32,051 nt of DNA from a virus. The position numbers and the translations under genes are program-made. Where the stretch lies: the IMG/VR virus record IMGVR_UViG_3300001460_000103, positions 1-32,051 of that record. One strand, written 5' to 3'. Shown here piece by piece: positions 1,636-29,358 of the stretch. The number at the start of each line of letters is the position of its first letter. Positions within the stretch are counted from its first letter, which is position 1. The notes beneath the pieces are model-generated. The model made no database searches. It was not told the origin of the DNA and worked only from the letters and a program-made list of their open reading frames with translations.

Positions 1636-2463
1636 ATGGCAACACTAGGTGGTATAATAAAGAATGTAGCTTCAGGGTTTTTCAATAGGACCCTTGCACG
1701 TCTTACAGGCGCTGGTATTTCTACGGACTCAAGACTAGTGCAGGCTAGAGCCAAATGGTCAGGCAGAAATGACACAACCGACTGGCGTGTGAGATTACAG
1801 GTGCCCGAAAATTCACCATTAATTAAATTTTTTGATTTTGAAAGAAATCCTCTAATGAAGCCTCTCGCAGAGTCTCGAGGGATATTTTGGCCGTTAACAC
1901 CTGCTGTTGTGATACAGCACTCGGCAAATTACAATGCGTTGGCACAGACACACAGCAACTTTCCATTCCAGGCATACCAGAATTCACAAGTGGATCAGAT
2001 GAATATCATTGGCGAGTTTCCCGTGCAGAATTCCGAGGACGCTAAACACTGGGTAGCAACTGTTAATTTTTTAAGGACGGCAACAAAAATGTTTTTTGGA
2101 AAAGACGAAGGTGATGGACTTAAAGGAAATCCTCCACCAATTATGCACCTGTTTGGTTACGGTGACAACATGTTCCACAAAGTGCCAGTGGTTATCAATT
2201 CTTTTAACGTTGAACTAAGACCGGGCATAGATTACATATCAACAAAACAAAGCAACACACCTTATAAACAATTGGCAGGATCAGACGCTGGGTTCTTCAT
2301 GAACGCAGAGGGAGAGGATCAATCATGGGCACCAACACTGTCAAATATATCTGTGCTAATAACTCCTATATATGGCAGGGAGACTATCAAGAATTTCTCA
2401 ATGAAAGACTTTGTAAACGGAAGAGCTAACGGAAAAGGCACAGAAGGGGTAGGATTCATTTAA
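1636..2463 (+). CDS. 48: gp48-like baseplate tail-tube cap protein
   Basis: Probable baseplate protein on which the tail tube is started. At 275 residues it is in the range of the marine T4-like proteins annotated as gp48, and shorter than T4 gp48 (about 364). Features recalled from that family are seen: GAGISTDSRLVQARAKWSG near residues 26-44, DWRVRLQVP (49-57), and a middle section VDQMNIIGEFPVQNSEDAKH. The C-terminal half (VPVVINSFNVEL, then ISVLITPIYGRETIKNFSM) is predicted beta-rich, like gp48/gp54 and tail-tube folds. It is the first gene after the late promoter and overlaps the next gene by one base (TAATG). An assignment to gp54 (tube initiator) is the main alternative. Identification rests on remembered family resemblance, not a search. 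Confidence 0.65.
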   Translation: MATLGGIIKNVASGFFNRTLARLTGAGISTDSRLVQARAKWSGRNDTTDWRVRLQVPENSPLIKFFDFERNPLMKPLAESRGIFWPLTPAVVIQHSANYNALAQTHSNFPFQAYQNSQVDQMNIIGEFPVQNSEDAKHWVATVNFLRTATKMFFGKDEGDGLKGNPPPIMHLFGYGDNMFHKVPVVINSFNVELRPGIDYISTKQSNTPYKQLAGSDAGFFMNAEGEDQSWAPTLSNISVLITPIYGRETIKNFSMKDFVNGRANGKGTEGVGFI

Positions 2464-2762
2464 TGGCCAAGTATTCAACGACGTCACCTTATTTTGCAAC
2501 TCCGCAGAACAACATCAACCTAGGTGTGTTTGTTCCAAGACCACTGACAGCAGAAAAGGACGATCAGACATACATCATAGAGAGGACCTATGCGTACAGA
2601 CCAGACCTACTGGCTTATGACCTTTATGGCTCTCCAAGATTATGGTGGGTGTTCGCACAAAGAAATCCAAACCAGTTAGAGGACCCAATATACGATTTTA
2701 AACCGGGAGTGACTATTCAGTTGCCAAAGCCAGGTAATGTCTCCAGCGACCTAGGTATATAA
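2463..2762 (+). CDS. 53: gp53-like baseplate wedge protein (short form)
   Basis: Small baseplate wedge component, 99 residues against about 196 in T4. The recognisable core is RPDLLAYDLYGSPRLWWVFA (about 47-66), which parallels the T4 gp53 segment ending in an ANAIYGNPQLYWV-type motif. It is followed by NPNQLEDPIYDFKPGVTIQL, a LysM-like ending that fits wedge proteins of many contractile tails. In T4, gp53 helps join six wedges around the hub. It starts inside the stop of the preceding gene (TAATG) and lies two bases ahead of the next, so it is part of one translationally coupled block. The N-terminal 30 residues are not recognisable. Confidence 0.7.
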   Translation: MAKYSTTSPYFATPQNNINLGVFVPRPLTAEKDDQTYIIERTYAYRPDLLAYDLYGSPRLWWVFAQRNPNQLEDPIYDFKPGVTIQLPKPGNVSSDLGI

Positions 2763-2764
2763 AA

Positions 2765-7371: not shown

Positions 7372-7787
7372 TGGCATACGGCGGCGGCGGATCAGGAAGT
7401 AATTTGGCAAACAAATCAGTGACCTTCAAAGGTTTCAGCTCAAAGGCAGAGCAAAAAAATTTTAAGCTATATGATTTTGAGTGTGCCAAACAGGACCTTA
7501 TAAACAGATTGAGTGTGCGTAAGGGCGAGAGAGTTGAGAATCCAGAATTTGGCACTATCATATATGATGCAATCTTTGAACCTTTTACTGAACAATTAAA
7601 GGATGCCATATTAGAGGATGTGACAGCAAATCTCAATGCAGATCCTCGTATAGCAACACAGGACATAAGGGTCACAGAAGCAGATAAAGGAATAGCCATA
7701 CAGGCTACTATAACATACGTACCTTTGGATATTACCGAGAAACTACGGTTTGATTTCGATGAAAATTCGTTACTACGCCTATCTTAA
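7371..7787 (+). CDS. 25: gp25 baseplate wedge protein (GPW/gp25 family)
   Basis: Wedge protein with a lysozyme-like fold but structural role, found in nearly all contractile tails and contractile injection machines. At 138 residues it is the usual family size. The family signature is clear: AKQDLINRLSVRKGERVENP (41-60), then EFGTIIYDAIFEPFTEQLKD, and a C-terminal beta segment IAIQATITYVPLDI. The conserved 'G-E-R-x-x-x-P-x-F-G' block that gp25 uses to nucleate sheath assembly at the baseplate is intact. It overlaps the spike gene by one base (TAATG) with AGGAG nine bases upstream. It is followed by gp6, the same adjacency as in T4 relatives. Confidence 0.93.
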   Translation: MAYGGGGSGSNLANKSVTFKGFSSKAEQKNFKLYDFECAKQDLINRLSVRKGERVENPEFGTIIYDAIFEPFTEQLKDAILEDVTANLNADPRIATQDIRVTEADKGIAIQATITYVPLDITEKLRFDFDENSLLRLS

Positions 7788-7807
7788 TATACGCAGTTAA
7801 TTTAATA

Positions 7808-7815
7808 CATAAATA
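7808..7815 (+). promoter_or_regulatory. Possible late-promoter variant CATAAATA before gp6
   Basis: CATAAATA differs from TATAAATA by one base and sits in the only gap (42 bp) within the baseplate operon, 15 bases ahead of the gp6 ATG. A start about six bases downstream would leave a leader of under ten bases, and I see no Shine-Dalgarno before this ATG. Such motifs arise by chance in AT-rich DNA, so this is tentative. Confidence 0.35.
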
Positions 7816-7829
7816 TCCATACAAACAGT

Positions 7830-10800
7830 ATGGCCACTACAGATAGACAAAACAGATTATTAGTTGCGGAAGATTGGAGAAAGATCTACCAGTCATTCCA
7901 ACAGGCAGATTTTAAAAGTTACGACTTCGAAACATTACGTAGAACAATGGTGGCGTATCTGCGTGAGAACTATCCAGATGATTTCAATGACTTCGTAGAA
8001 AGTTCGGAGTACGTTGCACTGATAGATCTTATTGCCTACATAGCACAGGCACTTTCTTTCAGAGTTGACTTGAATGCAAGAGAAAATTTTCTTGAGACAG
8101 CAGAGAGAAGAAATTCGATCTTAAGGTTAGCAAGGCTTATTAACTACAATGCAAAAAGAAACAAGCCTGCAACAGGATTGTTAAAAATAAATTCAATCTC
8201 TACAACACAAGACGTTACAGATTCATCAGGAACAAATTTAGCAAACAGCACAATAGTGTGGAACGACTCAGCAAATTCTAATTACAGAGAACAATTTACT
8301 GCGATATTAAATGCCGCAAATCAGCAAGGCCAATTATTTGGAAAGCCCAGAGAAAAAGGAACAATAGGTGGGGTAGATACAGAAGTTTACACATTGGCAT
8401 CTAATCAAAACGGATTGCCTATTTTTGGTTTTCAGAAATCAGTAGGTGGTGTAAGCAGAGCTTTTGAAATAGTACCGTCTACAATAAACGACAGTGATTC
8501 AATTTACGAATCAGATCCAGTAGAAGGCACAGGGTTGACTTACACATACCGTAATGACGGTTCAGGCGACGCTTCGAACAACACAGGATATTTCTTCCTA
8601 TTCAAACAAGGAACTTTGCAAGACACTATATTCACAGTGGACAATGCAATTACAAATTATGTTAAAAGTTTAGCAACAATAAACGTTAACGATTCCGATG
8701 TTTGGTTGTACAAGTTAGACCAATTTGGACAGATAATAGAAAAATGGGAAAAGGTATCTGCACTGTCTGGCAATAATGCGATTTATAATTCATTGTCAAA
8801 AGATGAAAGAAACATTTACAACGTAATAACAAAAAACGAAGATGCAATAGATCTAGTGTTTGGTGATGGTAATTTTTCTAATTTGCCACTTGGATCTTTT
8901 AGAGCTTACTACAGAGTAAGCGACAATGCCAAGTATTCACTTCAACCCGCTGACATGCAAAATGTACAGATAGATGCAACGTATCAAGACTTAAACGGTT
9001 CTTCACAGACATTGTCAGTGACAATGAGTTTAAAGGCATCGATCTACAATTCAGCAGAAACAGAGTCAAACGCATCGATAAAGGAAAAGGCCGCACAGGT
9101 TTATTATTCACAGAACAGAATGATCACTGCTGAAGACTATCAGATAGTTCCTTTGAGTGCATCACAAGAGATCGTAAAAGTTAGATCAGTAAACAGATCT
9201 GCATCAGGGATAAGCAGAGCAAAAGAGATTTTAGATCCAACTGGCGCATATTCAAATATAAGTGTTTTTGCCGAGGACGGAATGTTATACAGAGAAGAAA
9301 CTGCACCAACATTCACTTTCACGTTTAACAACAGCAGTGATGTGCAGACTGTGATAGATTCATCAGTTGAAGCAAAATTAAAGACAGCATACTCGCGTCA
9401 TTTTTATTATGACAAATACTCCGCAAAAAGTTTAAGCTCACTCACGGCAACATGGAATTCATCTACGACAACGACAAACACCAACACAGGATATTTCACT
9501 TCAGGCGGTGCACTTGCAACGGGAGATACAGCAACATCAAATTTACAATACGCAAAGGCTGGTTCACTTATTAAATTTACGTCACCCGACACAAGAGAAT
9601 TTTTAAATGGAAGTCTTGTAACTTCAGGTACCGAATTAGCTGAAGATCGGAAATGGGCTAAAATTTCTGCTGTCGAAGGAGATGGCTCAAATGGCGGTCA
9701 AGGAAACTTATCATCTGGTGCTGGACCAATTACTTTGGCAAACATAATACCTAATGGTTCTGTTTTGAGTACAGTGATTCCAAATTTTACAACGTCATTC
9801 TCAGCAACACTGGAAGCCAACATACGAGACCGTATAGAAGCATATGAAGAGTTTGGTTTAAGGTACGATGTGGATTCAGAAGAATGGAAGGTCATTACAT
9901 CAACAAACCTAAGTTCAAGTTCAGTGTTTAATCTAAATAACACGGGTTCCACAGCAGGCACCGCTCTTGACTCAAGTTGGTGGTTCAAATTTACAAATGA
10001 CGGAAACACCTACACAGTGACATACAGAAAAATGGACTACATTTTCGAGTCTGAAGGGCAGAATAAATTTCATTACGATATTGAAGAAAAAATTTATGAT
10101 TACAAAACAGGAAAAACGGTCAAAGACACAATAAAAATTTTAAAAACAAACAGCATTGTGTCAACTGGATCCAGCATAGGCTATCCGTTAATATGGCAGA
10201 TTACTGATACAGTAACAGAAGACGACGGGTTCCAAGATAACAGGAAAGTAAAAGTTGGATTCTTTGATAATGACGACGACGGTGTTGTAGACAATCCTGA
10301 AATATATGATATTTTTATTGAACCAGACACATCGGTGTCAACTAAATTTGTTTTCTTTGAAAAATATATTTCTTATGATAGCATTGAGAGATACAGACCA
10401 TATGCGGCATCAAACTTTGTTGTTACGGAAAAAGAGACAGATATTAATTTAAACACTGCAACATACACTGACGGACAACTATTTTATTTTTATGATGGTG
10501 CGGAAGATGTTGTCAAGAAGTATGTGTTAAGCACAAACACATTGTCAACGACTACAGACTATTACGCCAGACGAGGCAGAAGTTCAATAGATTTCCAATA
10601 TAAACATCATGCAGGACAGGAAACAAGGATAGATCCAAGTGTGTCAAATATTATAGATACCTATTTGCTAGAAAGAACTTACGACAATTTATTTAGAATA
10701 TGGTTACAAGATGGCGGCACAAAGCCAATAACATCAACATCTGATCAATTGAGAATCAATTATTCGGGTGCATTGAATCCTTTAAAATCTCTATCAGATC

Positions 10801-11318
10801 AAGTAATATACCATCCGGTAAAATATAAAATTCTATTTGGCAGTGATGCAGAAGAACAGTTACAAGCAACTTTCAAAGTTGTAAAAAATTTAAAAACTAA
10901 TGTCACAGATGCAGTGATCAAAACAAGAGTTATTGCCGCTATAAATGAATTCTTTGCGTTAGACAACTGGGATTTTGGGGATTCTTTTTATTTCACAGAA
11001 TTAGCCGCTTATGTACACAACCAACTTGCACCGGATCTTTTGACGGTAGTAATTGTGCCAAATGAGTCCGGACAGGGGTTTGGGTCTCTGTTTCAGATCA
11101 ACTCAGCGGCAGACGAAATTTTCATCAGTGGGGCCACCGTTGATGATGTGTCGATTATAACAGCACTAGGAGCCAACCAATTAGAGGCTTCCGGTACTGT
11201 GGTCACATCTACATCAACTGCCACGTCAAACACCTCATCAGGATCAGCAGTGTCAGGCTCTACTACAACAGGTTCGGGATCAAGTTCAAGTACCGGCAGT
11301 AGTGGGGCAGGATACTAA
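7830..11318 (+). CDS. 6: gp6 baseplate wedge protein (baseplate J-like)
   Basis: Major wedge protein that dimerises to form the inner ring of the baseplate. The N-terminal 110 residues are typical of marine T4-like gp6: DFKSYDFETLRRTMVAYLRE, DFVESSEYVALIDLIAYIAQ, and ARENFLETAERRNSILRLA. A middle segment (KEKAAQVYYSQNRMITAEDY, about 417-436) followed by IVKVRSVNR carries the gp6/gpJ core motif. The protein is 1162 residues against 660 in T4, with the extra length in beta-rich sequence after residue 500. Near the C-terminus FALDNWDFGDSFYFTELAAY resembles the J-family ending. The final 35 residues are a low-complexity Ser/Thr/Gly tail ending in GAGY. There is no clear ribosome site at this ATG. 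The stop overlaps the next start (TAATG). Confidence 0.9.
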   Translation: MATTDRQNRLLVAEDWRKIYQSFQQADFKSYDFETLRRTMVAYLRENYPDDFNDFVESSEYVALIDLIAYIAQALSFRVDLNARENFLETAERRNSILRLARLINYNAKRNKPATGLLKINSISTTQDVTDSSGTNLANSTIVWNDSANSNYREQFTAILNAANQQGQLFGKPREKGTIGGVDTEVYTLASNQNGLPIFGFQKSVGGVSRAFEIVPSTINDSDSIYESDPVEGTGLTYTYRNDGSGDASNNTGYFFLFKQGTLQDTIFTVDNAITNYVKSLATINVNDSDVWLYKLDQFGQIIEKWEKVSALSGNNAIYNSLSKDERNIYNVITKNEDAIDLVFGDGNFSNLPLGSFRAYYRVSDNAKYSLQPADMQNVQIDATYQDLNGSSQTLSVTMSLKASIYNSAETESNASIKEKAAQVYYSQNRMITAEDYQIVPLSASQEIVKVRSVNRSASGISRAKEILDPTGAYSNISVFAEDGMLYREETAPTFTFTFNNSSDVQTVIDSSVEAKLKTAYSRHFYYDKYSAKSLSSLTATWNSSTTTTNTNTGYFTSGGALATGDTATSNLQYAKAGSLIKFTSPDTREFLNGSLVTSGTELAEDRKWAKISAVEGDGSNGGQGNLSSGAGPITLANIIPNGSVLSTVIPNFTTSFSATLEANIRDRIEAYEEFGLRYDVDSEEWKVITSTNLSSSSVFNLNNTGSTAGTALDSSWWFKFTNDGNTYTVTYRKMDYIFESEGQNKFHYDIEEKIYDYKTGKTVKDTIKILKTNSIVSTGSSIGYPLIWQITDTVTEDDGFQDNRKVKVGFFDNDDDGVVDNPEIYDIFIEPDTSVSTKFVFFEKYISYDSIERYRPYAASNFVVTEKETDINLNTATYTDGQLFYFYDGAEDVVKKYVLSTNTLSTTTDYYARRGRSSIDFQYKHHAGQETRIDPSVSNIIDTYLLERTYDNLFRIWLQDGGTKPITSTSDQLRINYSGALNPLKSLSDQVIYHPVKYKILFGSDAEEQLQATFKVVKNLKTNVTDAVIKTRVIAAINEFFALDNWDFGDSFYFTELAAYVHNQLAPDLLTVVIVPNESGQGFGSLFQINSAADEIFISGATVDDVSIITALGANQLEASGTVVTSTSTATSNTSSGSAVSGSTTTGSGSSSSTGSSGAGY

Positions 11319-14300
11319 TGGCTGACACTCCTACAAATTCTTTAACCAACAACGAAGTTATAAAACAAGGCACAAACGAGTACAGACGTACTGTACAACA
11401 TCTGCCTGCATTTTACAGGACTGCCGCTAATCAAAGATTCTTGTCAAGCACATTGGATCCATTGGTCCAGAAAGGAGCACTGGAGAGACTAGACGGATTT
11501 GTTGGTAGGCAGGATGCTTATACTAGGAAATCTACGGACAGATATATTTCAACAACGAGTAGAGATAGGATGGCTTACCAACTCGAGCCCACAATCACCT
11601 ACACGGACAGAGACACAACAAGTGTAAATCCAGAGGATCAAGTCAAGTTCACAGGAACATACGACGATTACATAAACCAATTGAAATACTTAGGCGGTAA
11701 GGTCAATAATCACGACAGACTTAACAAGGAACACGTATATAGTTGGAATCCTGCAATTGACCTAGACAAATTAGTAAATTATAGGGAATACTTCTGGGTG
11801 TCCAATGGACCAGATGCAATAGAGATAGACAGTCCTGGCACAGGTGCAGAAGCAGAATACAAGGTGCAGGCAGTGACCGGTGCTTATCAGTTTCCACACC
11901 TGGAAGGCGAAAGCAATCCTGAGATAACACTCTATAGGGGTAACACTTACAAATTTAATGTAGACGCCAAAGGAAATCCATTCTACATAATGACCGAACC
12001 ATACTCAACAATGCTGTCATCAGACGGATCAAGTTCAACACTTTATACTTCTGGTGTAACCAACAATGGAGCAGACGAAGGCACTGTTACTTTTGTCGTG
12101 CCAACAAACGCACCTAACACTTTATACTACCAGTGTGGCAATCATGATGCCATGTATGGTGTACTCCACGTGCAGACAGTTGATGCAGGCACACAAATAA
12201 ATGTTGAAGATGACATAGTGGGAGTAAAAAACTACAAACTTAGAACACTTGATTTATCTAATGGCATGAAGATTAAATTTTCTAATACAAGAGTTTCGTC
12301 AGCTTATCAAAATAAGGAATACTACATCGAAGGTGTTGGCGAGGCGATAAGGATTACGGATGTATCAACACTAGCAACACCCGAGAGCTATTCAGACTCT
12401 GGTGTACCGGTAGACAAGGATTACATAACAATTAAAAGAAGTTCACTAGATCAAAACGCATGGTCGAGATACAACAGGTGGTTTCATAGATCGGTCATAG
12501 AAAAAAGTTCAGCAGTAAACGGCACCGCCACAGTTTTAGATGAGACAGATAGGGCAAAAAGACCCATTATTGAATTTGATTCAGGCCTAGCACTTTACAA
12601 TTCAGGTACAACAGCAAAGACTCCTGTAGATTTATACGATACAACACAGACGGACGCATTTAGTAATGTGTCAGGGACATTTGGATACATTGTTGATGGT
12701 GTGCCGATCACAGATGGAATGAGGGTAATATTCTCAGCAGACACCGACCCACTGGTGAGAAACAAAATTTATGTGGTCAACTTTGTAGATGCCGGCGATT
12801 CCTCTGTATTATCACTTACGCTTTCAGAAGCATTAAATGGTACAGCGGGAGACAAAGAAACTGTTTTTGTAAAACAAGGAACAAGTAACAAAGGAAAATC
12901 ATACTACTACAACAGCTCTACAACAAGATGGCAAACAACACAGCAGAAGACTAAATTGAATCAACAACCGTTGTTCAACATGTATGACAACAATCACACA
13001 TTGTTTGATGACGCGACAGCATATCCAAACTCCTCTTTTGTGGGAGCCAAAGTTTTTGCTTACGCTACCTCTGACAATGCAACAACAGACACGGTATTAG
13101 GAATTAAAGTAAAATACAACACTATCAACAATGTGGGAGACATGGTGTTCGAGTCTGATCATACGTCAGGCACATTCACATATCAAGATGACGGGGTAAC
13201 AACCACTAAAAATCTTGCCGAGGGACACCTTCACTACACTACAAGCAGTACTTCTCACAACAGTAAGAGTGCTTGGGTTAAACGTACAAACGAAAGCAAA
13301 CAGCGTGTTATTAGAACCTTCATAGTCGACGACACAGAAAAAAGATTATTCCCGATTGATTTTTATGCCAACTCATCATCATCATCGGACCTTGAAGTAT
13401 CAGCTTCAGTAAACGGCATAAGAAAAACGCTGACAACAGACTACACTTTGGTAGACGGAACAGCAAACAAATACGTTAGATTTGTAAACGAATTGAAAGT
13501 CAACGACCAAGTAAGACTTGCCGGATACAGTACCGCGGATAAATTGGCAGACAAAGGCATTTATGAAATACCTGAAAACCTTTCTACAAACAGTCTAAAC
13601 GAAACAGTCGGAACTTTCACCTATGGACAAATACTAAAGCACTCAACAGATATACTTGATAAAGATTCAGAATTAACAGGGGCAATACCTGGCGTAACAA
13701 ATTTACGAGACAAACCAGATGCCAAGCTCAAAGGCGGAACAATACATCAGCATGAGGCACCTCTTGCTCCTGCAATATTCAACCTTGTGGATCAAGATGC
13801 AAACGCCATCAGAGCCATAGACTATGTTAACCAAGAGTACGAGAAATGGTATAACGCTTTCTTAACGTATGCTACTGGTACAGCATATGAAGGAAACGCC
13901 GCCGATAGGGTTGACGAAATAATAATTGGAATAAACCAGGGTAGGAACAGTTCTTTTCCATTCTATTATGAAGACATGGTGGGTTGGGGAGAAAACGTAT
14001 CTTTAAGGACCTACACAGTGCAAGGTGCATCACAGACAGAATATGCTTTGGATTCACAGCACAATCTTACAACTTTAGGCAACAGAGCGGTTTATGTTTA
14101 CAAAAACGATGTGCAATTAGTTCATGATTCTGAATACACATTCAGTACAGCAGACGACAGTGTAACAATTAGTGCAACTCTCACAGCAGGTGACATTATT
14201 AAAATAAAAGATTATAGCGATACCACTGGTAGTTACATGCCACCATCACCAACAAAATTAGGAATGTATCCAAAATTTAAGCCTGAAACATTTACTGATA

Positions 14301-17300
14301 ACACTTACATAACAAGTCAAACAGTTTTAAGGAAACATGATGGATCAATTATAAAGTCTTATGGTGATGAACGTGATGCCTTGATACTTGAATTAGAAAA
14401 AAGAATTTATAACAACTGTAAGACAGCATACGATTCAACGTTGCTAGATTTATCAGATGTAAGGCCCGGTGCTTTTTCAACAACAGAGTATTCACTATCT
14501 GAAATTAATGACGTGATGGGCGGAGATTTTTATTCATGGGCAGGAAGAAACAATGTACAATACATTAATAACACGACCTTTGTTGAAGGTTCTCCTTTCA
14601 CATACAATTATTGCAAATCAACTGATAGAATTACTGGCACAACACTTCCAGGATATTGGAGAGGTATATACCAATATTTCTATGACACCGATAGTCCACA
14701 TCTAAGACCATGGGAAATATTAGGACATTCAGAAAAACCATCAGACTGGGATACCACATATGGTGCGGCACCCTACACAGCAGGAAACAGTGTACTATGG
14801 AATGCAATAGCATCGGAACCAGGAAGATATGGAAAACCAAACATAGCAAATTATATTCCTGTTGATGCCTCAGGAAATTTATTAGATCCAATAGCGGCAG
14901 GATTGATACAAGACTTTAACGTGCCCGGTAGAACATTGCACTGGAAATTTGGTGATCATGGTCCAGCAGAAACGTCATGGAGAAGATCAAGTTCGTACCC
15001 ATTTACTGTGATGAAAACTTTAGCAACAACAAAACCTGCAAAATTCTTCTCTACTTTCTTTGACCTATCTCGATTGACTACAAACACAGCAGGAAATCAA
15101 ATTTACAGTGATACAGGAATTAGACTAAGATTTAAAACTTCAAAGTACCATCTCGAAACTTCTATAGATAACAACACAGGAGTGACAACGAGATACATCA
15201 CAGCAGGTTATCAAGTTTTCATCATCAATAGCCTCATAGCAAACAACCTCGACCCTATAACTTTTTACTATGATAAGATGAAAAATCTCAATGTGCAACT
15301 TGCATACAAGTTAGGAGGATTCACAGACAAAGGTAATATAAAGGTATTGACAGATTCTGTTTCACCAGGATCTACATCAGGATCTAAATTTATTCCAGAC
15401 GAAAACTACAAAATATTGTTTAGAACTTCTAATCCGGTTGAAAGTTTTGAATATTCAGGAGTGCTCATTGAAAAGAATACAGACACAACGACATCAACAG
15501 ACGGATCAACAGTCACTGATGTTGGTGGATACAAGGTATTAGGTTATTCTACATCAAAACCGTTCTTCCGTTTCACATATCCAGCCAAGTCAAGTAATTC
15601 AAAAAAAATATCAGTCGCAGGATCTGTTTCTGTAGAACAGCACTCTAATTTCCAAGAAACAGTGCAGACAATACCTTATGGATATGTGTTCACTACAATA
15701 CAGGATGTTGCTGATTTCTTATTTGGTTATGGAAACTACTTAGAATCACTAGGATTTAAATTTAACAAATATTCTAATGAAATTAGAGAGACTCTTAATT
15801 GGTCCAACGCTGTAAGAGAATTCTTGTTCTGGACCACACAAAAATGGGCACCTGGTTCGGCTATAACAGTCTCACCGGCGGCAGATGGGTTTGAATTAGA
15901 CACAAACAACAGTGTGGTTGGCAAATTAAGAAACCTAGCAGGTGATTATTCTTTATTAGATGCAGGCGGAAGAAAGATAGATATCAGAGAAGTAAGCACA
16001 AAACGTACAGGAAAAACTTTTGATCTTGACATCAAATCTCAAGATGTTGGATTGTTTAACATATCATTGAACACGGTTCAAAAAGAACATATGTTAATTT
16101 TTGATAATTCAACTGTGTTTTCAGATATAATTTATGAACCGTTCACAGGCTTTAGGCAGGCAAGGTTAAAACTTGTAGGATGGAAAACAGCAGGGTGGAA
16201 TGGCGATTACTACGCACCCGGCTTTGTGTTTGATGCCGCACAGGTTACTTACTGGACAGCAAACAGTGATTACAGAATAGGTGATTCAATCGAATATCAA
16301 GGCAAATTTTATGTTGCTAAATCCAATCATAATTCTATGGACAAGTTCGAAAACACGTACTGGACACTGAAAAGAGATAAACCGGCACCACAATTAATTC
16401 CAAACTTTGATTACAAGATATCACAGTTCAATGATTTTTATAATTTAGAATCAAGTAATTTTGATGAGTCACAACAGAAACTAGCACAAAAATTAATTGG
16501 ATACCAATCTAGAGATTATCTAGAAAATCTTTTTGTCAACGATGTTTCGCAATACAAATTTTATCAAGGATACATTAGAGAAAAAGGGACACAGAATGCA
16601 ATAGATAAAATCCTTAAAGCAAAATACGAAAATTCGGACATCACATTAGATTTATATCCAGAATGGATGATCCGGACTGGTACTTTTGGAAACACAGATG
16701 CACGAGAAAATATTCAAATCACTTTAAGTGATAGCGAAGTAAATGCCGATCCACAAAGTATCGAACTTCTAGACAACGCAACAGACACTAAAACATATTC
16801 GAGGTCACTGGCAGTCAACAAAGAAGACTTTTATAGAAAACCTGTGGAATACACAGCTAGTACAACATTTGCATTGTTAGATTATACCAAAGAAGGTGTA
16901 GACAGAGATAACACACAGGTCTTTAAGACTGCTGGATATCCTCAGTTGGGACAGGTGCAACACACCGGTTTCGATATAGATGATCTTCTAAATCTAGATA
17001 TTAATTCTATAGATAAAAATGATCTTGTATGGATAGCTAATAAACAAGACAAGGATTGGGACGTTTACAGACTAACAAGTGCTGGAATAAAAATTGCAAC
17101 GTTATCAACTTCTGAAAATGCAACAAAATTACTAATAGAGTTCACAGGGTCACATGGACTTTCTGCCGGAAACAACACTACTCCTGCCGACTACTTTGCG
17201 ATTTCAAACAGCGAGGCTACAACACTTAACAGGGTGTTCCAGGTAACAAGCACACCCAACCATAAAACAGTTATAGTCGACTACGAGGACAATGTAAACT

Positions 17301-20300
17301 TTATACCAACCCTACTTGACGGTTCGACTGCAGACAGTTATGGCAACGTATACAAGTTTGTATCTGTGCGTGTTGCATCCATGGACAATGTAAATGACAG
17401 ACTAGACTATCATGTCTATCTAGATAAAAATGACTCATTAAGTGTACCTGGAGATAAAATTTTTACAGACGCCGACACTACAGGATTATGGCGAGTATAT
17501 GAGAAGCAAGATCCATACACAGAATTTAGAACGTTTTCACCAAACGCAAGTTTATCTGACCAAGACTTTGGATACAAAATAGTTGCAAGGAACGACGGAA
17601 GATCCGCTGTAATATCAGCACCAGGAAAAGGTCAAGGGGAATTACATTTCTTATTCAGATCAAATCATTCCGCAGGTACACAATATTCTGTGCAATCGAC
17701 TGTGACAATGACTGACAACAACGATAATACAAGTAGATTAGGTGAGTCTCTGTCAATGAGTACGGATGAAAACTTGGTGGTTGCAGGTGCTCCGTATACA
17801 AACACGTTAGGACTTGACGGAAGCACAAGACAACTTGATGCTGGATTGATCAAAACTTTTGTTTGGGATTCTTCGACATTCAAATATGGTGCACTAGGAA
17901 CAGTCAACCCGCCAACTGATGGATCGTCATCTAATGAAAATCTAAATTTTGGTTGGGCACACAAGATAAGTGAACCGGGTTTGCTTTCAGTCAGAGACAC
18001 AGCAACCAAATATCTTTTTGTGTCTGCTCCTGGACACGCAAACGACAACGGAAGAGTATACATGTACACATGGGGAATAGGTGCTGACGGAAGTACTTAC
18101 GACACTTGGACACTTGACTACACACTAGAGGCTCCTTCTGCAGGACAAGGTCACAGATTTGGACACAGACTAGACGCCAATGACAATGGTGATATTCTTG
18201 CAGTAAGTTCATTGGCCCCGGGTCAGGCAGGAAAAGTAGAAATTTTTGTAAGGGTAGGGCAAAGCAACGATGACAGCACACAGAACTCATTTACATTAGC
18301 ACAAACACTCACAGGTACTTCCGGTGATGGTTCAACTTTGAACACGTCATTTGGAGAGTCTATCACAATGAGCAAAGATGGAACTAAATTGTTCGTAGGT
18401 GCTCCGGGAGTTGACGGAACAGATACTCCTGACACGGGTGTTGTTTATGTCTACAAATGGAACAGAGATGGTTCTACAAATACATACACACTAGATCAAA
18501 CAATCAGTGAACCTGATACGCTTTCCGGAGCCAAGTTTGGGTCGTCATTGTCGGTCAATCAGTCTGCAACAAGATTAATTATAGGTGCGGAAAAAGCCGC
18601 AAATCCTAGAGAAATGAAATTTGAATCTGGGGAAACAACATTCGACTTACAGGACACTACTATTGTAGATACCAATGCAAGTTCGGGTGCCGTGTACACT
18701 GCCACATTGTACAACACGAAATATGTCATAGATGATAGATTAGTGTCGCCTACTGTTTCACCACACGACGATTACGGCAGGGGAGTATGCATGATTGACA
18801 ACAACGTATTTGTAGGTGCACCTAAGGATGAGGGCAATTCAGGTTTAAGTAATGATGGATCTGTGTATTGTTTAGACTTGACAGAAGAAGATGTGTATGC
18901 ATGGAAAAATATTGCAACAGAAAAAGCATTTGTAGATATTAGTAAATTAGGACAAGTATTTGATTTCAACAACGGCTCGAAACAAATCAGGGATTACTAT
19001 GATCTATACGATCCGGTTAAAGGAAGAATACTAGGAATCGCTGACAGAGAAATAAACATTAAATCTCCATGGGATCCAGCTGTATACAATACAGGAGATA
19101 AAGCCAACACCGCGACACCTTGGGCAGAAAATCATATAGGTGAAACATGGTGGGACCTTTCAGCTGTGAAATGGTTATGGTACGAACAAGATAGCCAAGA
19201 ATACAAAGTAAACAACTGGGGTAAAACTTTCCCAGGTTCCAACATCAACATATATGAATGGACGGAATCAAGATTCACGCCAACGGAATGGAATAACTTT
19301 TCAGGCACACAAGAAGGTGTGTCGGCTCAAGTCACAGGTGAGGCTTCTGATAATTACACACAAATACAAAGGTATAGTTCTGTATTAGACACTTTTGTAA
19401 ATTATTATTTCTTCTGGGTAAAAAATAGAGCATCTATCCCGACCAATACAGTTGTACAAAGAAAAAACACAACGGCATTTGTTTCAAGTATTATTGCAAA
19501 CCCAAGCAAATCTGGTCTCAAATATTATTCTATTACTGACACAGATAAACTGATACTAAATGGAGTAAACGATTTGATCAATAGTGCTATCGTGCTCAAC
19601 ATAGACATAAGAACTAATAATTTTGATGGAGATTCACACACGGTGTGGAAATTAGCACGTGAAAGTGACCCGGATTACAGACCAGGACATCAGATAGAAT
19701 CACGTTGGTGGGATTCACTAGTGGGCAAAAACATAACCGGTGATTCTGTTCCGGACATAGATTTGCCTTTAAATGAAAAATATGGAAATAGTATAAGACC
19801 TCGACAGAGTTGGTATGTTGACAGATATTCTGCACTTAAAGAGTTAGTAGACTACGCCAACACTATTCTTAAAAAGAATCAACTAGTTGGTCAGATACGA
19901 TTAGGTAATTTAGATTCCAAGGAACCAGAACCAAACACTGTAAGTGGATTGTGGGACGGACAGGTAGACACATACGCAGAGTTAACTTACATAAACACTG
20001 CAGATATATCAGGAACACTAAACTATTTGGTCAAAGCAGATGAAACAGCAAACAACTATTGGGCAATATACCAATGGGATGGCACATTATGGAATAGGAC
20101 AAGAATTCAAACTTATAACACTTCCAATTACTGGAGTTACACTGACTGGTACGGCACTGATCCTGCCATCCATGAAATGTTACACGACGAAAACACACCT
20201 ATTGATAAACAAGTAACCTTCGAGTACGAACTTGACACATTAGATCTTGCATTAGGAAAACACGTAAAAGTTACCAATGCAGACACCGGTGGTTGGAAAC

Positions 20301-23300
20301 TGTTCATGAAAACTGCAACAGGATGGACAAATGTTGGAACGGAAAATGGCACAGTAAGATTAAGCACAAAATTATATGATTATTCTCAGGACGCTACTGG
20401 TTTTGCTTCAGGTGATAACTTTGACGATAATACTTTTGACCAAGAGCCAGTTACAGAAACAAGAAATATATTAACGGCACTGCGTGATGACTTATTCATA
20501 GGAGACCTAAAAGTTGAATACAACACTCTATTCTTTACAGGTTTAAGGAAAGTACTAGCGGAACAAATTTATGTTGACTGGATGTTTAAAACAAGTTTTA
20601 TAAACGCCGTAAACAAAGTTAGACAATTTGACCAAAGAAAGACTTATACAACAGGCACTGATAGCTGGATTGAAAGTTACATTAACGAAGTGAAACCTTT
20701 TCATACAAAACTACGTGAGTACAAACTGGGCTACAACGCTCCAGAACAACACGACAGTGTGATCACAGATTTTGACAATCCGCCTTTCTACGATGCTTCT
20801 GTGTCCAAGATAAGAAGATTAAATCCGCAGTACGACATTGATAAACTTAAACAATATCCATGGCAATTATGGTACGACTATCATAGAAAACATGTCAAAT
20901 CAATAACAGTAACACATGGTGGATCTGGATATGTAAGGGTACCGACAGTTACCATCACCGGTGATGACAGTACATCGGCTACTGCTACTGCAACAATACA
21001 AAGTGGAGCAGTCACATCTATTACAGTAACAGGAGTAGGCTTTGGATATTCCACAACACCTACTATCTCAATTACAGGGGGACTTGCAGACGGTTCAACG
21101 CCAACAGATGTTGCCAAAGCATATGTCAATCTAGACAACGATCTTGTGAGAGATTTCCTTACAACCATAAAATTTGATAGGATATCAAGCACATCTAAAG
21201 TGGTTAACTGGACGGCCAGCACAATATACAAGTACGGCGCATTGTTAAGATATAAAAATCAACTTTATAAAGTTACAAATGAATTTACTTCGACAACAGA
21301 TTTTGACGACAATGTAAACAGTGTTTACAAATATTTTGGTGATGAGTCAGGACTTACAGCCGCAGACAGGATATTAGGTTTCTATACACCAGCATCAGGC
21401 ATGCCGGGCAATGAATTGTCACAGGTTATGTCAGGTGTTGACTATGGTGGTACTATGGTCACAGGATTGCTGTTTAGTCAAAGTCAAGGGTGGGACAATT
21501 CACCATGGTACGACTATCCATGGGACAATTACGGTCTATCAAGAACAGTACCTTTCTTGGCAGATGGTTCTACAAAATCGTACACATTTGACACTGCACC
21601 GCAAGTAGGGGAAGTATTCCATGTGTACAGCACGGAAGATGACAGCACACGTAGAAAACTTTCTGATACATTCTCAGGTGATGGTAGCACAAGAACATTC
21701 ACTCTTAGCACTTCGCCTAACGAAAATGCTTTGATAGAATTTATACCTGCAGATGATGACGGTGTGTTGACACCTACAGACGACAGGACACTTGACTCTA
21801 TCGTAAAAGGCGGACTGTTTACGAAAGATGGACTTTATGGTTCTGCACTTGGATCAGCACCAAGTGATATAAACGTGGATGGTGATGAGTTCATATCTTC
21901 CACAACAAGTCATGCACCAGAAGAGACTGTGCCTGGTCAGATATTTGACACAGTTGATATAAAAGTTTACACTTCTCCTACTTCAGGAGCACCTTTTATT
22001 ACAGAAAAGATTTACACAGGTGATGCGACAACAACAACGTTCTCACTTGCAGAACATCCAGGAACTGTGGGTTCAGTTACAGTTTCTGTAAATGGTGTAA
22101 TTAAAAAATTAACAACAGACTATACAGTGGATGTGGGAGCAAAAACAATAACTTTTGGTTCAGCACCAGGCAGTGGTACTGTTATTGCAACAAAAACATT
22201 TGCCATATCGGGTAGACAGTTCAAAGCATTAGATCAGTTCACTGGAGATGGGTCAACCACGGTGTATACTACTTCATCAAGGGAAGATTTTAATTTAGAT
22301 TCAACACTTGCAGAATTGTATGTGACGGTCAACGGCGTGCCTACAACCGCTTTCAATTCAAGTTCAACATCACCAGAATTCGGTGACGGTTCAACAACAA
22401 GTTTGGGTAACACTCTTATTATAGATTTCAATTCAGCACCGGCAAGTGGAGCATTTATTCAAATAGCAGGATTCATGAAGAGTCCAAGTAATGCCTCAGG
22501 CAGAAATCATATGAGAATGAGGAACGAGGAGATAACCTTTGACGGTTCTACTACACACGTGTTGACACACCCACCGGGAACCATCAGACCACTGACAGGT
22601 TTGACACTTATCGAAGTGGATGGAAAAATGTTGAGAGCGCCAGATACCACTTATTACAAAGGTGACGGAAGCACATACACATATGGTGTTGCAACGGGAC
22701 TATCAGATGATTCAACAGTGGACCCTGCAAAAACTATAAGTTCTGCTAGTCAAGTGGAAGTGCATGTCAATGGAGGGCTGAAAACATTAACAACAGACTA
22801 CACAGTTGACACTGGAAGTCAAAACATAAATTTCACTTCAGGGAGTGTGCCCAGATCAGACCAGATGGTTAGTATAACCACTTTTGTAGATCATCATTTC
22901 AGTATTGACGCTAGTAACAGATTGGTCTTAAACTTGACTCAAATTGCGGCAGATGGATACACATTGAATGTCAATGACAAGATGGCAGTAACTACTTTCA
23001 ACAATGCTGTTGGTATGAGTTTAAGAAGAGAAGTTTTAGAAGGAAGACCAGACGGAGTATATAAAACTTACTTTACACCAACAAACTCAACTTACATGTA
23101 CGTCTGGCTAAATGGAGAAAGTCTAATTCAAAATAATGACTTTACACTTACTGGAGGAAACACAATTACAGTGATTGGAAAAACAATGACGTCATCAGAC
23201 AGGCTTGATATCTTATACTTTGCGTCGCCAACAATAGCAAACGCTGTTGGGTACAGAATTTTTAAAGATATGATGAACAGAACTTTCTATAAGAGAATTA

Positions 23301-23941
23301 GTAAGACACACACGACTGAATTAACACTAACACTGGCCACAGACGCCACTACTATAACTGTGGCAGATGGAACGAAACTTGCTGACCCTCAGTCAATAAT
23401 AGGATTAGATGGATCAACTATCAGCACTATAATACCAGGAGTGGTGTTTATAGACAAAGAAAGAATTGAATATTTTACCAAGACAGGAAACACGTTGGGA
23501 CAACTACAACGTGGCACACTTGGTACAGGAATTAAGGGGCATGGATCAGGCACTGAAGTGGTAGATGTGTCTGGTACTCAAACCATCCCTTATGTGGACA
23601 CCGTGTACACCAACACTTTTATAAGTGACGGAAGCACTGCGTCGTTCACAATATCACAAACCCCATCCTCTGCTACTGAGTTAGACATATTCATTGGTGG
23701 CCAACGATTGTTGCTCACTAGCGAGGATGGATCAACTATCAACTATTCTGTGGACGGAAGCAATGTAGTCACATTAACCAGTGTACCGCCTATTTCCATG
23801 CAGATTAAAATATTACACAAGAGAGGACAGGTATGGACAACAGCGGCAGATGGTAATCCTGCTGATGGTAAAGGTTTACAAGGCTCGATCACTGCACAGT
23901 CTAAATTCATTGCGGACGAACCGACAAACTCACCTGAATAA
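11318..23941 (+). CDS. Giant (4207 aa) mosaic baseplate/fibre protein with gp7-like segment
   Basis: One uninterrupted 12.6-kb frame, by far the largest in the window. Modules seen: an N-terminal marine-phage signature with YREYFWVSNGPDAIEI (about 153); a cupredoxin-like domain (about 200-290; C273, H276, M279); a carbohydrate-binding-like WTANSDYRIGDSIEYQGKFY (1646-1665); a segment with YQSRDYLENLFVNDV and FYQGYIREKGTQNAIDKIL (within 1719-1772) resembling T4 gp7 near FYSTKGIEASYKFLFKVLY; seven FG-GAP repeats (2084-2505); a GGSGY...PTVTITG double repeat (3195-3256); a second WTA-type motif (3298-3345); and several Ig-like repeats (3454-4175). A GVVFIDKERIEYFTKTGN block lies near 4040. It follows gp6, where T4 has gp7, gp8 and gp10, none of which appear separately here. 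AGGA five bases before the ATG supports the start. Probable role: wedge plus peripheral adhesin; the exact role is unknown. Confidence 0.7.
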   Translation: MADTPTNSLTNNEVIKQGTNEYRRTVQHLPAFYRTAANQRFLSSTLDPLVQKGALERLDGFVGRQDAYTRKSTDRYISTTSRDRMAYQLEPTITYTDRDTTSVNPEDQVKFTGTYDDYINQLKYLGGKVNNHDRLNKEHVYSWNPAIDLDKLVNYREYFWVSNGPDAIEIDSPGTGAEAEYKVQAVTGAYQFPHLEGESNPEITLYRGNTYKFNVDAKGNPFYIMTEPYSTMLSSDGSSSTLYTSGVTNNGADEGTVTFVVPTNAPNTLYYQCGNHDAMYGVLHVQTVDAGTQINVEDDIVGVKNYKLRTLDLSNGMKIKFSNTRVSSAYQNKEYYIEGVGEAIRITDVSTLATPESYSDSGVPVDKDYITIKRSSLDQNAWSRYNRWFHRSVIEKSSAVNGTATVLDETDRAKRPIIEFDSGLALYNSGTTAKTPVDLYDTTQTDAFSNVSGTFGYIVDGVPITDGMRVIFSADTDPLVRNKIYVVNFVDAGDSSVLSLTLSEALNGTAGDKETVFVKQGTSNKGKSYYYNSSTTRWQTTQQKTKLNQQPLFNMYDNNHTLFDDATAYPNSSFVGAKVFAYATSDNATTDTVLGIKVKYNTINNVGDMVFESDHTSGTFTYQDDGVTTTKNLAEGHLHYTTSSTSHNSKSAWVKRTNESKQRVIRTFIVDDTEKRLFPIDFYANSSSSSDLEVSASVNGIRKTLTTDYTLVDGTANKYVRFVNELKVNDQVRLAGYSTADKLADKGIYEIPENLSTNSLNETVGTFTYGQILKHSTDILDKDSELTGAIPGVTNLRDKPDAKLKGGTIHQHEAPLAPAIFNLVDQDANAIRAIDYVNQEYEKWYNAFLTYATGTAYEGNAADRVDEIIIGINQGRNSSFPFYYEDMVGWGENVSLRTYTVQGASQTEYALDSQHNLTTLGNRAVYVYKNDVQLVHDSEYTFSTADDSVTISATLTAGDIIKIKDYSDTTGSYMPPSPTKLGMYPKFKPETFTDNTYITSQTVLRKHDGSIIKSYGDERDALILELEKRIYNNCKTAYDSTLLDLSDVRPGAFSTTEYSLSEINDVMGGDFYSWAGRNNVQYINNTTFVEGSPFTYNYCKSTDRITGTTLPGYWRGIYQYFYDTDSPHLRPWEILGHSEKPSDWDTTYGAAPYTAGNSVLWNAIASEPGRYGKPNIANYIPVDASGNLLDPIAAGLIQDFNVPGRTLHWKFGDHGPAETSWRRSSSYPFTVMKTLATTKPAKFFSTFFDLSRLTTNTAGNQIYSDTGIRLRFKTSKYHLETSIDNNTGVTTRYITAGYQVFIINSLIANNLDPITFYYDKMKNLNVQLAYKLGGFTDKGNIKVLTDSVSPGSTSGSKFIPDENYKILFRTSNPVESFEYSGVLIEKNTDTTTSTDGSTVTDVGGYKVLGYSTSKPFFRFTYPAKSSNSKKISVAGSVSVEQHSNFQETVQTIPYGYVFTTIQDVADFLFGYGNYLESLGFKFNKYSNEIRETLNWSNAVREFLFWTTQKWAPGSAITVSPAADGFELDTNNSVVGKLRNLAGDYSLLDAGGRKIDIREVSTKRTGKTFDLDIKSQDVGLFNISLNTVQKEHMLIFDNSTVFSDIIYEPFTGFRQARLKLVGWKTAGWNGDYYAPGFVFDAAQVTYWTANSDYRIGDSIEYQGKFYVAKSNHNSMDKFENTYWTLKRDKPAPQLIPNFDYKISQFNDFYNLESSNFDESQQKLAQKLIGYQSRDYLENLFVNDVSQYKFYQGYIREKGTQNAIDKILKAKYENSDITLDLYPEWMIRTGTFGNTDARENIQITLSDSEVNADPQSIELLDNATDTKTYSRSLAVNKEDFYRKPVEYTASTTFALLDYTKEGVDRDNTQVFKTAGYPQLGQVQHTGFDIDDLLNLDINSIDKNDLVWIANKQDKDWDVYRLTSAGIKIATLSTSENATKLLIEFTGSHGLSAGNNTTPADYFAISNSEATTLNRVFQVTSTPNHKTVIVDYEDNVNFIPTLLDGSTADSYGNVYKFVSVRVASMDNVNDRLDYHVYLDKNDSLSVPGDKIFTDADTTGLWRVYEKQDPYTEFRTFSPNASLSDQDFGYKIVARNDGRSAVISAPGKGQGELHFLFRSNHSAGTQYSVQSTVTMTDNNDNTSRLGESLSMSTDENLVVAGAPYTNTLGLDGSTRQLDAGLIKTFVWDSSTFKYGALGTVNPPTDGSSSNENLNFGWAHKISEPGLLSVRDTATKYLFVSAPGHANDNGRVYMYTWGIGADGSTYDTWTLDYTLEAPSAGQGHRFGHRLDANDNGDILAVSSLAPGQAGKVEIFVRVGQSNDDSTQNSFTLAQTLTGTSGDGSTLNTSFGESITMSKDGTKLFVGAPGVDGTDTPDTGVVYVYKWNRDGSTNTYTLDQTISEPDTLSGAKFGSSLSVNQSATRLIIGAEKAANPREMKFESGETTFDLQDTTIVDTNASSGAVYTATLYNTKYVIDDRLVSPTVSPHDDYGRGVCMIDNNVFVGAPKDEGNSGLSNDGSVYCLDLTEEDVYAWKNIATEKAFVDISKLGQVFDFNNGSKQIRDYYDLYDPVKGRILGIADREINIKSPWDPAVYNTGDKANTATPWAENHIGETWWDLSAVKWLWYEQDSQEYKVNNWGKTFPGSNINIYEWTESRFTPTEWNNFSGTQEGVSAQVTGEASDNYTQIQRYSSVLDTFVNYYFFWVKNRASIPTNTVVQRKNTTAFVSSIIANPSKSGLKYYSITDTDKLILNGVNDLINSAIVLNIDIRTNNFDGDSHTVWKLARESDPDYRPGHQIESRWWDSLVGKNITGDSVPDIDLPLNEKYGNSIRPRQSWYVDRYSALKELVDYANTILKKNQLVGQIRLGNLDSKEPEPNTVSGLWDGQVDTYAELTYINTADISGTLNYLVKADETANNYWAIYQWDGTLWNRTRIQTYNTSNYWSYTDWYGTDPAIHEMLHDENTPIDKQVTFEYELDTLDLALGKHVKVTNADTGGWKLFMKTATGWTNVGTENGTVRLSTKLYDYSQDATGFASGDNFDDNTFDQEPVTETRNILTALRDDLFIGDLKVEYNTLFFTGLRKVLAEQIYVDWMFKTSFINAVNKVRQFDQRKTYTTGTDSWIESYINEVKPFHTKLREYKLGYNAPEQHDSVITDFDNPPFYDASVSKIRRLNPQYDIDKLKQYPWQLWYDYHRKHVKSITVTHGGSGYVRVPTVTITGDDSTSATATATIQSGAVTSITVTGVGFGYSTTPTISITGGLADGSTPTDVAKAYVNLDNDLVRDFLTTIKFDRISSTSKVVNWTASTIYKYGALLRYKNQLYKVTNEFTSTTDFDDNVNSVYKYFGDESGLTAADRILGFYTPASGMPGNELSQVMSGVDYGGTMVTGLLFSQSQGWDNSPWYDYPWDNYGLSRTVPFLADGSTKSYTFDTAPQVGEVFHVYSTEDDSTRRKLSDTFSGDGSTRTFTLSTSPNENALIEFIPADDDGVLTPTDDRTLDSIVKGGLFTKDGLYGSALGSAPSDINVDGDEFISSTTSHAPEETVPGQIFDTVDIKVYTSPTSGAPFITEKIYTGDATTTTFSLAEHPGTVGSVTVSVNGVIKKLTTDYTVDVGAKTITFGSAPGSGTVIATKTFAISGRQFKALDQFTGDGSTTVYTTSSREDFNLDSTLAELYVTVNGVPTTAFNSSSTSPEFGDGSTTSLGNTLIIDFNSAPASGAFIQIAGFMKSPSNASGRNHMRMRNEEITFDGSTTHVLTHPPGTIRPLTGLTLIEVDGKMLRAPDTTYYKGDGSTYTYGVATGLSDDSTVDPAKTISSASQVEVHVNGGLKTLTTDYTVDTGSQNINFTSGSVPRSDQMVSITTFVDHHFSIDASNRLVLNLTQIAADGYTLNVNDKMAVTTFNNAVGMSLRREVLEGRPDGVYKTYFTPTNSTYMYVWLNGESLIQNNDFTLTGGNTITVIGKTMTSSDRLDILYFASPTIANAVGYRIFKDMMNRTFYKRISKTHTTELTLTLATDATTITVADGTKLADPQSIIGLDGSTISTIIPGVVFIDKERIEYFTKTGNTLGQLQRGTLGTGIKGHGSGTEVVDVSGTQTIPYVDTVYTNTFISDGSTASFTISQTPSSATELDIFIGGQRLLLTSEDGSTINYSVDGSNVVTLTSVPPISMQIKILHKRGQVWTTAADGNPADGKGLQGSITAQSKFIADEPTNSPE
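11915..12183 (+). other. Cupredoxin-like domain inside giant protein
   Basis: Encodes about residues 200-288: EITLYRGNTYKFNVDAKGNP at the start and TLYYQCGNHDAMYGVLHVQT at the end. The C-x2-H-x2-M spacing (C273, H276, M279) resembles type-1 copper sites. The upstream position that in similar marine sequences I recall as GHPF reads GNPF here (N220), so one expected ligand may be absent. The fold is inferred; copper binding is uncertain. Confidence 0.5.
17558..18830 (+). repeat. Seven FG-GAP-like repeats in giant protein (predicted beta-propeller)
   Basis: Seven successive units, each beginning with an F/L/Y-G motif and closing in a VxAPG-like strand. They begin near residues 2084 (DFGYKIVARNDGR), 2140 (RLGESLSMSTDEN), 2210 (NFGWAHKISEPG), 2280 (RFGHRLDANDNGD), 2344 (SFGESITMSKDGT), 2406 (KFGSSLSVNQSAT) and 2485 (DYGRGVCMIDNN). 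Spacing is 56-79 residues. Seven copies match the blade count of integrin-type propellers. The units are diverged in DNA, so they are an old duplication. Confidence 0.75.
20902..21085 (+). repeat. GGSGY/PTVTITG double beta repeat in giant protein
   Basis: Residues about 3195-3256 contain two copies of a short unit: SITVTHGGSGYVRVPTVTIT, then SITVTGVGFGYSTTPTISIT. Copies share 'SITVT-x-x-G-x-GY-x-x-x-PT-(V/I)-(T/S)-IT'. They are separated by an Ala/Thr-rich linker. I associate this unit with marine phage fibre-like proteins, where it is probably a small beta module; binding function is not known. Confidence 0.7.
21673..23838 (+). repeat. C-terminal Ig-like repeat array of giant protein
   Basis: At least five diverged copies of a module that begins 'GDGST-x-x-(F/Y)' and continues through 'x-V-x-VNG-x-x-x-x-LTTDYTVD' to a closing 'ITF...AP-x-SG...I-x-x-x-x-F'. 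Starts are near residues 3454, 3568, 3642, 3781 and 4101, with a related unit near 3911 (TYMYVWLNGESLIQNNDFTL). Similar single units occur earlier, near 671 and 902. The pattern suggests a string of beta-sandwich domains, a typical extended fibre or stalk. Confidence 0.65.
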
Positions 23942-27418: not shown

Positions 27419-27419
27419 A

Positions 27420-29352: not shown

Positions 29353-29358
29353 AATGTT

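Follow-up and report, generated by a model that had tools for sequence, protein, structure and literature searches.

The window analysed here, the whole stretch of 32,051 bases, is the entire IMG/VR record IMGVR_UViG_3300001460_000103, from a phage known from environmental DNA alone. A giant open reading frame (ORF) is preceded by genes for a late sigma factor (minus strand), two virion structural proteins (275 and 718 aa), a gp5-like hub, and three baseplate wedge proteins on the plus strand: gp53 (2463..2762; PF11246; phrog_7145), gp25 (7371..7787; PF04965; phrog_261 and phrog_43), and gp6 (7830..11318; 1162 aa). This gp6 matches phrog_10646 (E 1.2e-288) and, less strongly, the T4 gp6 family phrog_219 (E 1.4e-18). 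It is much longer than T4 gp6 (660 aa), and its strongest similarity to the T4 gp6 family lies in residues 26-161. The hub gene (4936-7371) has a C-terminal match to Peptidase_S74, an endosialidase-type chaperone (E 1.6e-4). Past the tail region, positions 26945-31975 carry genes that look host-like, including one fatty acid desaturase (PF00487, E 2e-8); the glycosyltransferase, methyltransferase, and nitroreductase in the same stretch are guesses by eye.

The giant ORF itself (11318..23941, plus strand; 4207 aa) begins with ATG, has no internal stops, and forms one intact frame that overlaps the end of gp6 by a single base, so the initial annotation of a single 12.6 kb frame directly 3' of gp6 is confirmed. 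It matches PHROG_10938 ("virion structural protein") with E 0 and 1108.6 bits over five stretches, and phrog_10938 is recovered in five of seven segments of the chain when they are searched one by one. Matches to the core of the family occur in 60 phage records, among them that of coliphage Sharanji, with E. coli K12 MG1655 as its host; the products are named "virion structural protein", "structural protein", "putative structural protein" or "hypothetical protein", with one named "chitin-binding type-3 domain-containing protein". By sequence similarity the giant belongs to the PHROG_10938 family, already known from jumbo phages, and is not peculiar to one phage.

Nine of the 60 core-matching records are jumbo-phage orthologues of 3138-4555 aa that were compared in detail: those of PA5oct (gp355, 3857 aa), Phosso (4555 aa), RaK2 (3326 aa), Munch (3342 aa), Vibrio 2.275.O (3771 aa), Atu_ph07 (gp180, 4449 aa), SCTP-2 (3807 aa), CBB (CBB_236, 3340 aa), and RAS14 (3138 aa). 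The giants of RaK2, CBB, PA5oct, and Atu_ph07 (3326-4449 aa) are 25-30% identical to the window protein and likewise follow gp6. Pieces of the Phosso and Vibrio 2.275.O proteins, each used as a single query for related loci, returned no relatives. Residues 1-1700 of the giant match 80 phage records, with at least 12 Synechococcus and at least 7 Prochlorococcus phages among the matches listed, whereas residues 695-1700 match 60 records with no cyanophage among the matches listed. The cyanophage matches are therefore attributed to the first 700 residues, and they are perhaps due to a phrog_677-type domain located there.

A frame of this length could in principle be an assembly or reading-frame artefact. 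The one observation in that direction is a relative (L021, 13954-14352) whose frame is interrupted at about window residue 3010 and continues, at 90% identity, in an overlapping frame. An IMG/VR scan with residues 1695-2061 as the query gave 373 stretches, of which 372 are relatives. Among the best 80 of these 372, 43 carry a complete giant frame of more than 4100 aa (4186-4355 aa), 36 are cut by a contig end, and L021 is broken; one of the 43 complete loci (L008) matches the window at 100% identity over the queried part. A second, profile-based scan led by PA5oct yielded at least 599 stretches, at least 563 of them relatives. Of these, 80 were retained, 77 as new loci, although some contigs are shared with the first scan. 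The frame is complete in 44 of the 77, including 31 divergent complete ones of 2497-5536 aa. Given the 43 close and 31 divergent intact frames, an artefactual origin is extremely improbable.

In two divergent viruses from the second scan the chain is divided. The giant frame of L108 (2855-18093) stops at the equivalent of window residue ~2817, and a 1416-aa frame begins 10 bases later; still another frame, truncated by the contig boundary (at least 897 aa), matches residues 2904-3135 of the window protein (E 1.3e-12) and phrog_10938 (E 1.9e-22). The L104 frame (6101-14010) shares 49% identity with that of L108 across most of the chain and stops at the same position; the frame that follows it, truncated (at least 140 aa), is similar to the second frame of L108 (45.5%, E 1e-24). 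The occurrence of a common split in two divergent viruses argues that it is real. We did not meet such a divided giant chain in the open-licence literature searched.

The position of the giant is shared by its relatives. An annotated baseplate wedge protein lies directly 5' of the giant in PA5oct, RaK2, CBB, Phosso, and Atu_ph07; the PA5oct gene matches phrog_219 and the CBB gene has been named gp6 (PMC5259590). In Munch, Vibrio 2.275.O, SCTP-2, and RAS14 the 5' gene is long and does not bear a baseplate wedge name. The placement of the giant in the gp7 position thus stands, both in the window and in five annotated orthologous loci. Orthologues have also been reported as virion proteins. CBB_236 was found in the CBB virion proteome with 21 peptides and 7.72% coverage (PMC5259590). 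In phAPEC6, the virion protein gp245 (381.88 kDa, 17 peptides, 7.6%) is listed right after gp244, "baseplate wedge" (PMC7247149), and gene order and size suggest that gp245 is the giant orthologue. The PA5oct record carries an "ESI-MS/MS" note on its giant.

Alignment with the nine jumbo-phage orthologues resolves the chain into conserved cores (residues 25-160, 350-1640, 1693-1860, and 2534-3180; ~2200 residues) with inserts and variable parts between and after them (all features below are on the plus strand). The N-terminal core (residues 25-160; 11390..11797) aligns with all nine, and phrog_10938 matches residues 1-400 with E 4.3e-37. It is followed by an inserted domain (residues ~190-290; 11885..12187) that matches the C-terminal part of phrog_677, a baseplate connector family, at residues 198-286 (E 1.2e-17). 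By eye this domain looks cupredoxin-like, with a YYQCxxHxxMYG motif resembling a type-1 copper site; the motif YYQCxxHxxMxG is present in 71 of the 130 giant sequences collected, a count that includes duplicate contigs. The phrog_677-type domain is missing from RaK2, Munch, CBB, and Vibrio 2.275.O. The long core at residues 350-1640 (12365..16237), again aligned across the nine orthologues, matches phrog_10938 with E 5.4e-111 over residues 1001-1640.

Immediately after this core lies a CBM5/12 chitin-binding-type module (residues ~1641-1690; 16238..16387). Pfam CBM_5_12 matches the giant in two stretches (E 1.2e-6), the best at residues 1646-1675. The module is predicted with a pLDDT of 84-90 by AlphaFold2 (AF2), and VIA alignment matches it to modules of chitin deacetylases and to a chain of phage Milano (Z up to 8.0 over 45 residues). 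Its site is a gap in all nine jumbo orthologues, and other family members carry a similar module around the position corresponding to residue 1430-1440, which indicates that its place varies. The segment proposed as gp7-like (residues 1693-1790; 16394..16687) comes next. Further along, a variable insert (residues ~2060-2533; 17495..18916) carries FG-GAP repeats of the beta-propeller type (Pfam FG-GAP_2, E 2.9e-11, best stretch 2475-2517) and is short in RaK2, Munch, and CBB. The C-terminal conserved core (residues 2534-3180; 18917..20857), shared with the nine orthologues, precedes a glycine-rich GGSGY module (residues 3189-3301; 20882..21220) that matches phrog_460 (E 2.5e-11) and aligns with residues 420-528 of HTVC008M gp7 (hhalign E 5.2e-4, probability 31%). 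The tail (residues 3400-4207; 21515..23938) looks beta-repeat-like by eye. It varies among lineages, is poorly conserved with respect to the jumbo phages, and differs from the tails of the PHROG_10938 jumbo giants. A mosaic of adhesion-type modules, as originally described, is therefore evident from the FG-GAP_2 and CBM_5_12 matches, the domain shared with phrog_677, and the glycine-rich module shared with phrog_460.

To compare the giant with gp7 at the sequence level, we used a gp7-core profile of 13 sequences (six of T4 type, three cyanophages, HTVC008M, phiN3, pf16, and a Desulfovibrio phage). Because five of the 13 cores were excised around the KG motif, the profile is centred there. Across all 4207 residues its top placement is residues 1752-1773, at a KGT motif (hhalign score 22.3, E 0.15); against the giant segment alone the score is 19.2 (E 0.013). 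The match is short, spanning 18-22 columns. Among column-shuffled gp7 profiles, 1 of 80 placed as high on the whole chain (0 of 25 and 1 of 55; that one scored 23.3), and none of 115 reached the score on the segment alone (0 of 60 and 0 of 55). The motif is highly conserved in 63 aligned family members (K in 61, G in 63, T or S in 61). The gp7-like segment of the initial annotation (residues 1719-1772) thus has weak support: it overlaps the KGT placement, which mostly beats shuffles, yet by hhalign the match is not significant (E 0.15 for the whole chain and 0.013 for the segment). Overall, the KGT motif constitutes modest evidence for a gp7-like segment.

Broader comparisons with gp7 are negative. 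Full T4 gp7 (six sequences, hhalign profile comparison) and the T4 gp7 profile phrog_964 have no match in the giant, and the second core of T4 gp7, HPxGF, was not found in it by hhalign (best P 0.64). All 53 segment members match phrog_10938, and no gp7 family is found among the 25 of 33 PHROG matches listed for them or among 22 Pfam families. A stronger giant match is hardly to be expected, since T4 gp7 and HTVC008M gp7 align with each other solely at the KG[I/T] motif, and with an E of just 0.033. The giant segment also aligns at KGT with P2 gpI (12 columns, P 0.043), which we take to be the gp7 counterpart. However, gpI and the gp7-core profile fail to align at this motif (best P 0.13, elsewhere), so the gpI alignment adds little. 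No gp7 counterpart is named in the portions consulted of the papers on Atu_ph07 (PMC6102473) and phiKp24 (PMC9700779), and a 2010 review counts gp7 among the T4 proteins that are extra to P2 (PMC3004832). We met no prior gp7 assignment for the PHROG_10938 family in the open-licence literature searched.

Structure predictions were made for two segments. The model of residues 1440-1905 (AF2, 48 sequences) has a mean pLDDT of 65; the CBM part is confident, and residues 1690-1769 are predicted as four helices at low confidence (pLDDT 52-64). Foldseek and VIA searches with it retrieved chitin-binding modules and no wedge protein, so that this comparison speaks to the CBM part rather than to the gp7 part. 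The model of residues 2534-3190 (44 sequences) has a mean pLDDT of 79.9 and no PDB match at E <= 0.001 (Foldseek best E 0.47; VIA best Z 4.8 over 57 residues); a weak match of ~50 residues to tailspike domains was also seen. Against BFVD it has 16 matches at E <= 0.001, one of them named as an Atu_ph07 structural protein and the others "YHYH domain", uncharacterised or unnamed; these are taken to be family members. Positions 18917-20857 of the window thus encode a conserved, confidently predicted region (pLDDT 80) for which this search found no PDB match. At the sequence level, hmmsearch of PDB sequences with segment profiles (residues 15-420, 400-1000, 1000-1450, 1440-1905, 2534-3190, and 3190-4207) returned no wedge match; at E <= 0.001 the hits are solely chitin-binding modules (deacetylases and one chitinase), and the tail region 3190-4207 has none. 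A phmmer search with the propeller part (2051-2533) was likewise negative. The structural comparison with T4 wedge proteins proposed earlier therefore gave no T4 wedge fold in the two modelled segments.

Proteins in the gp7 position are not uniform in other phages. In P-HM1, a 4446-aa protein annotated as gp7 ("baseplate wedge initiator") lies between gp6 and gp8. The proteins in the same place are 3032 aa in S-CAM1, 1006 aa in phiN3, 523 aa in pf16, and 1016 aa in HTVC008M, an eightfold variation in length. The giants of P-HM1 and S-CAM1 resemble the window protein in size, in their place after gp6, and in the KGT motif. However, they show no significant profile match to it, and the cyanophages retain the HPxGF core and an adjacent gp8; relative to these giant-gp7 precedents, the difference of the window lineage is that gp8 was not found. 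T4 gp7 (1032 aa) and P2 gpI (176 aa) share a KGI or KGT motif and a place after gp6 or gpJ with the giant, but the latter is 4 to 24 times as long, and the second core of T4 gp7 was not found in it. The HTVC008M protein (L096, 33435-36485) follows gp6, and baseplate wedge PHROGs 2885, 17744, and 38653 are among its matches. Its annotation and best match, "head closure Hc2", may stem from the shared glycine-rich module. A 2020 paper described gp7 as absent from pelagimyophages and replaced by VrlC (PMC7029224); we did not adopt this replacement for HTVC008M because the protein after gp6 matches these wedge PHROGs.

The initial annotation further proposed that gp7, gp8, and gp10 are fused in the giant. 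No separate gp7-gp11 is found in the window, as was claimed (phrog_964, 977, 967, 958, and 963 absent at E <= 0.001 from 17 ORFs, excluding 3-503, 31412-31975, and short overlapping frames). Gene absence from only 32,051 bases means little, and 21 related records were therefore searched (16 from IMG/VR and five jumbo genomes; 72-524 kb, possibly fragments, with eight of 287-524 kb). Separate gp7 and gp8 homologues with T4-type cores were not found in these either. The gp8 core (phrog_977) is found in none of the 21, with all three controls (T4, RB49, and HTVC008M) positive, and the gp7 core (phrog_964) is likewise found in none, with T4 and RB49 positive and HTVC008M negative. Since the HTVC008M protein matches other wedge PHROGs yet misses phrog_964, a divergent gp7 could escape this search. 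Another gp8 family, phrog_438, matches in 9 of the 21 records, mostly inside giant frames, but always within profile positions 185-338, which differ from the parts matched by T4 and RB49 gp8. The gp10 family phrog_958, positive in T4 and RB49, gives partial matches in five of the 21 (two in PA5oct and one short match in each of four IMG/VR records), all of them in open frames short of giant length (178-2243 aa).

A true fusion of gp7, gp8, and gp10 would account for the missing gp8 core and for the lack of a gp10 match in 16 of the 21 records; the chain is long enough, and the divided chains of L104 and L108 indicate that joins and splits occur. The content of the giant argues against it. By hhalign there is no match to gp8 (three sequences, E 0.54), gp10 (E 0.15; also no phrog_958 match), gp9, gp11, gp12 (gp9-gp12 each as a single sequence) or gp53, and the phrog_438 matches fall off the gp8 parts seen in T4 and RB49. 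The sole sequence link to rim connectors is the phrog_677 C-terminal domain at residues 198-286, whereas T4 gp9 and gp10 match phrog_677 through its N-terminal part. PA5oct encodes a separate protein, in the third gene 3' of its giant, with a match to the gp10 C-terminal part (E 2.2e-17); a giant is thus not bound to replace gp10. Cyanophages with a giant after gp6 retain gp8. The proposed fusion is not supported, and we consider it very unlikely.

A different possibility is that the giant lies at the baseplate periphery as an adhesin or an anchor for fibres, with a short, unrecognised gp7 encoded elsewhere. The several adhesion-type modules fit such a role, the gp7 evidence is a single short motif, and no wedge fold was found in residues 1440-1905 or 2534-3190. 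Moreover, given the strong divergence reported for gp7 (PMC3037559), a separate copy may have been missed; phrog_964 fails even on HTVC008M. Against this, the giant keeps its gp6-adjacent place in annotated orthologues, the ~2200 conserved residues common to jumbo phages exceed what an exchangeable fibre would need, and the KGT motif mostly beats shuffles. Such a peripheral role is unlikely on this evidence, though it deserves serious consideration. On balance, we lean, without great confidence, toward the view that the giant takes the part of gp7 in the baseplate wedge of this lineage, which is related to the RaK2-like and other jumbo phages; the best reading is of a gp7-like scaffold enlarged through the insertion of adhesin-type modules.

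If the giant is a gp7-equivalent, the helical KGT segment (residues ~1693-1790) would join two gp6 chains in the inner core of the wedge, and very long N- and C-terminal arms would extend to the baseplate rim. These arms would bear the exchangeable modules (CBM5/12, FG-GAP repeats, the phrog_677-type domain, and glycine-rich and beta-repeat-like units), which could bind surface sugars or anchor fibres and so assume some functions of gp8 and of the rim proteins. We infer this gp6-giant complex, with its copy number and layout, as well as ligand binding and the replacement of gp8. More speculatively, and with considerable doubt on our part, a large phage clade that includes jumbo phages may have rebuilt the wedge around one gp7-like chain of 2500-5500 residues, which would do the jobs of gp7 and gp8, bear rim adhesin modules, and swap them by insertion and by gene splitting and joining.

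The gp7 assignment, if true, would supply the wedge component that is missing so far from RaK2-like phages and their relatives; the protein family extends to 60 phage records and at least 563 IMG/VR stretches. It would also make it possible to test whether the separate rim proteins of T4 can be replaced by one expandable chain.
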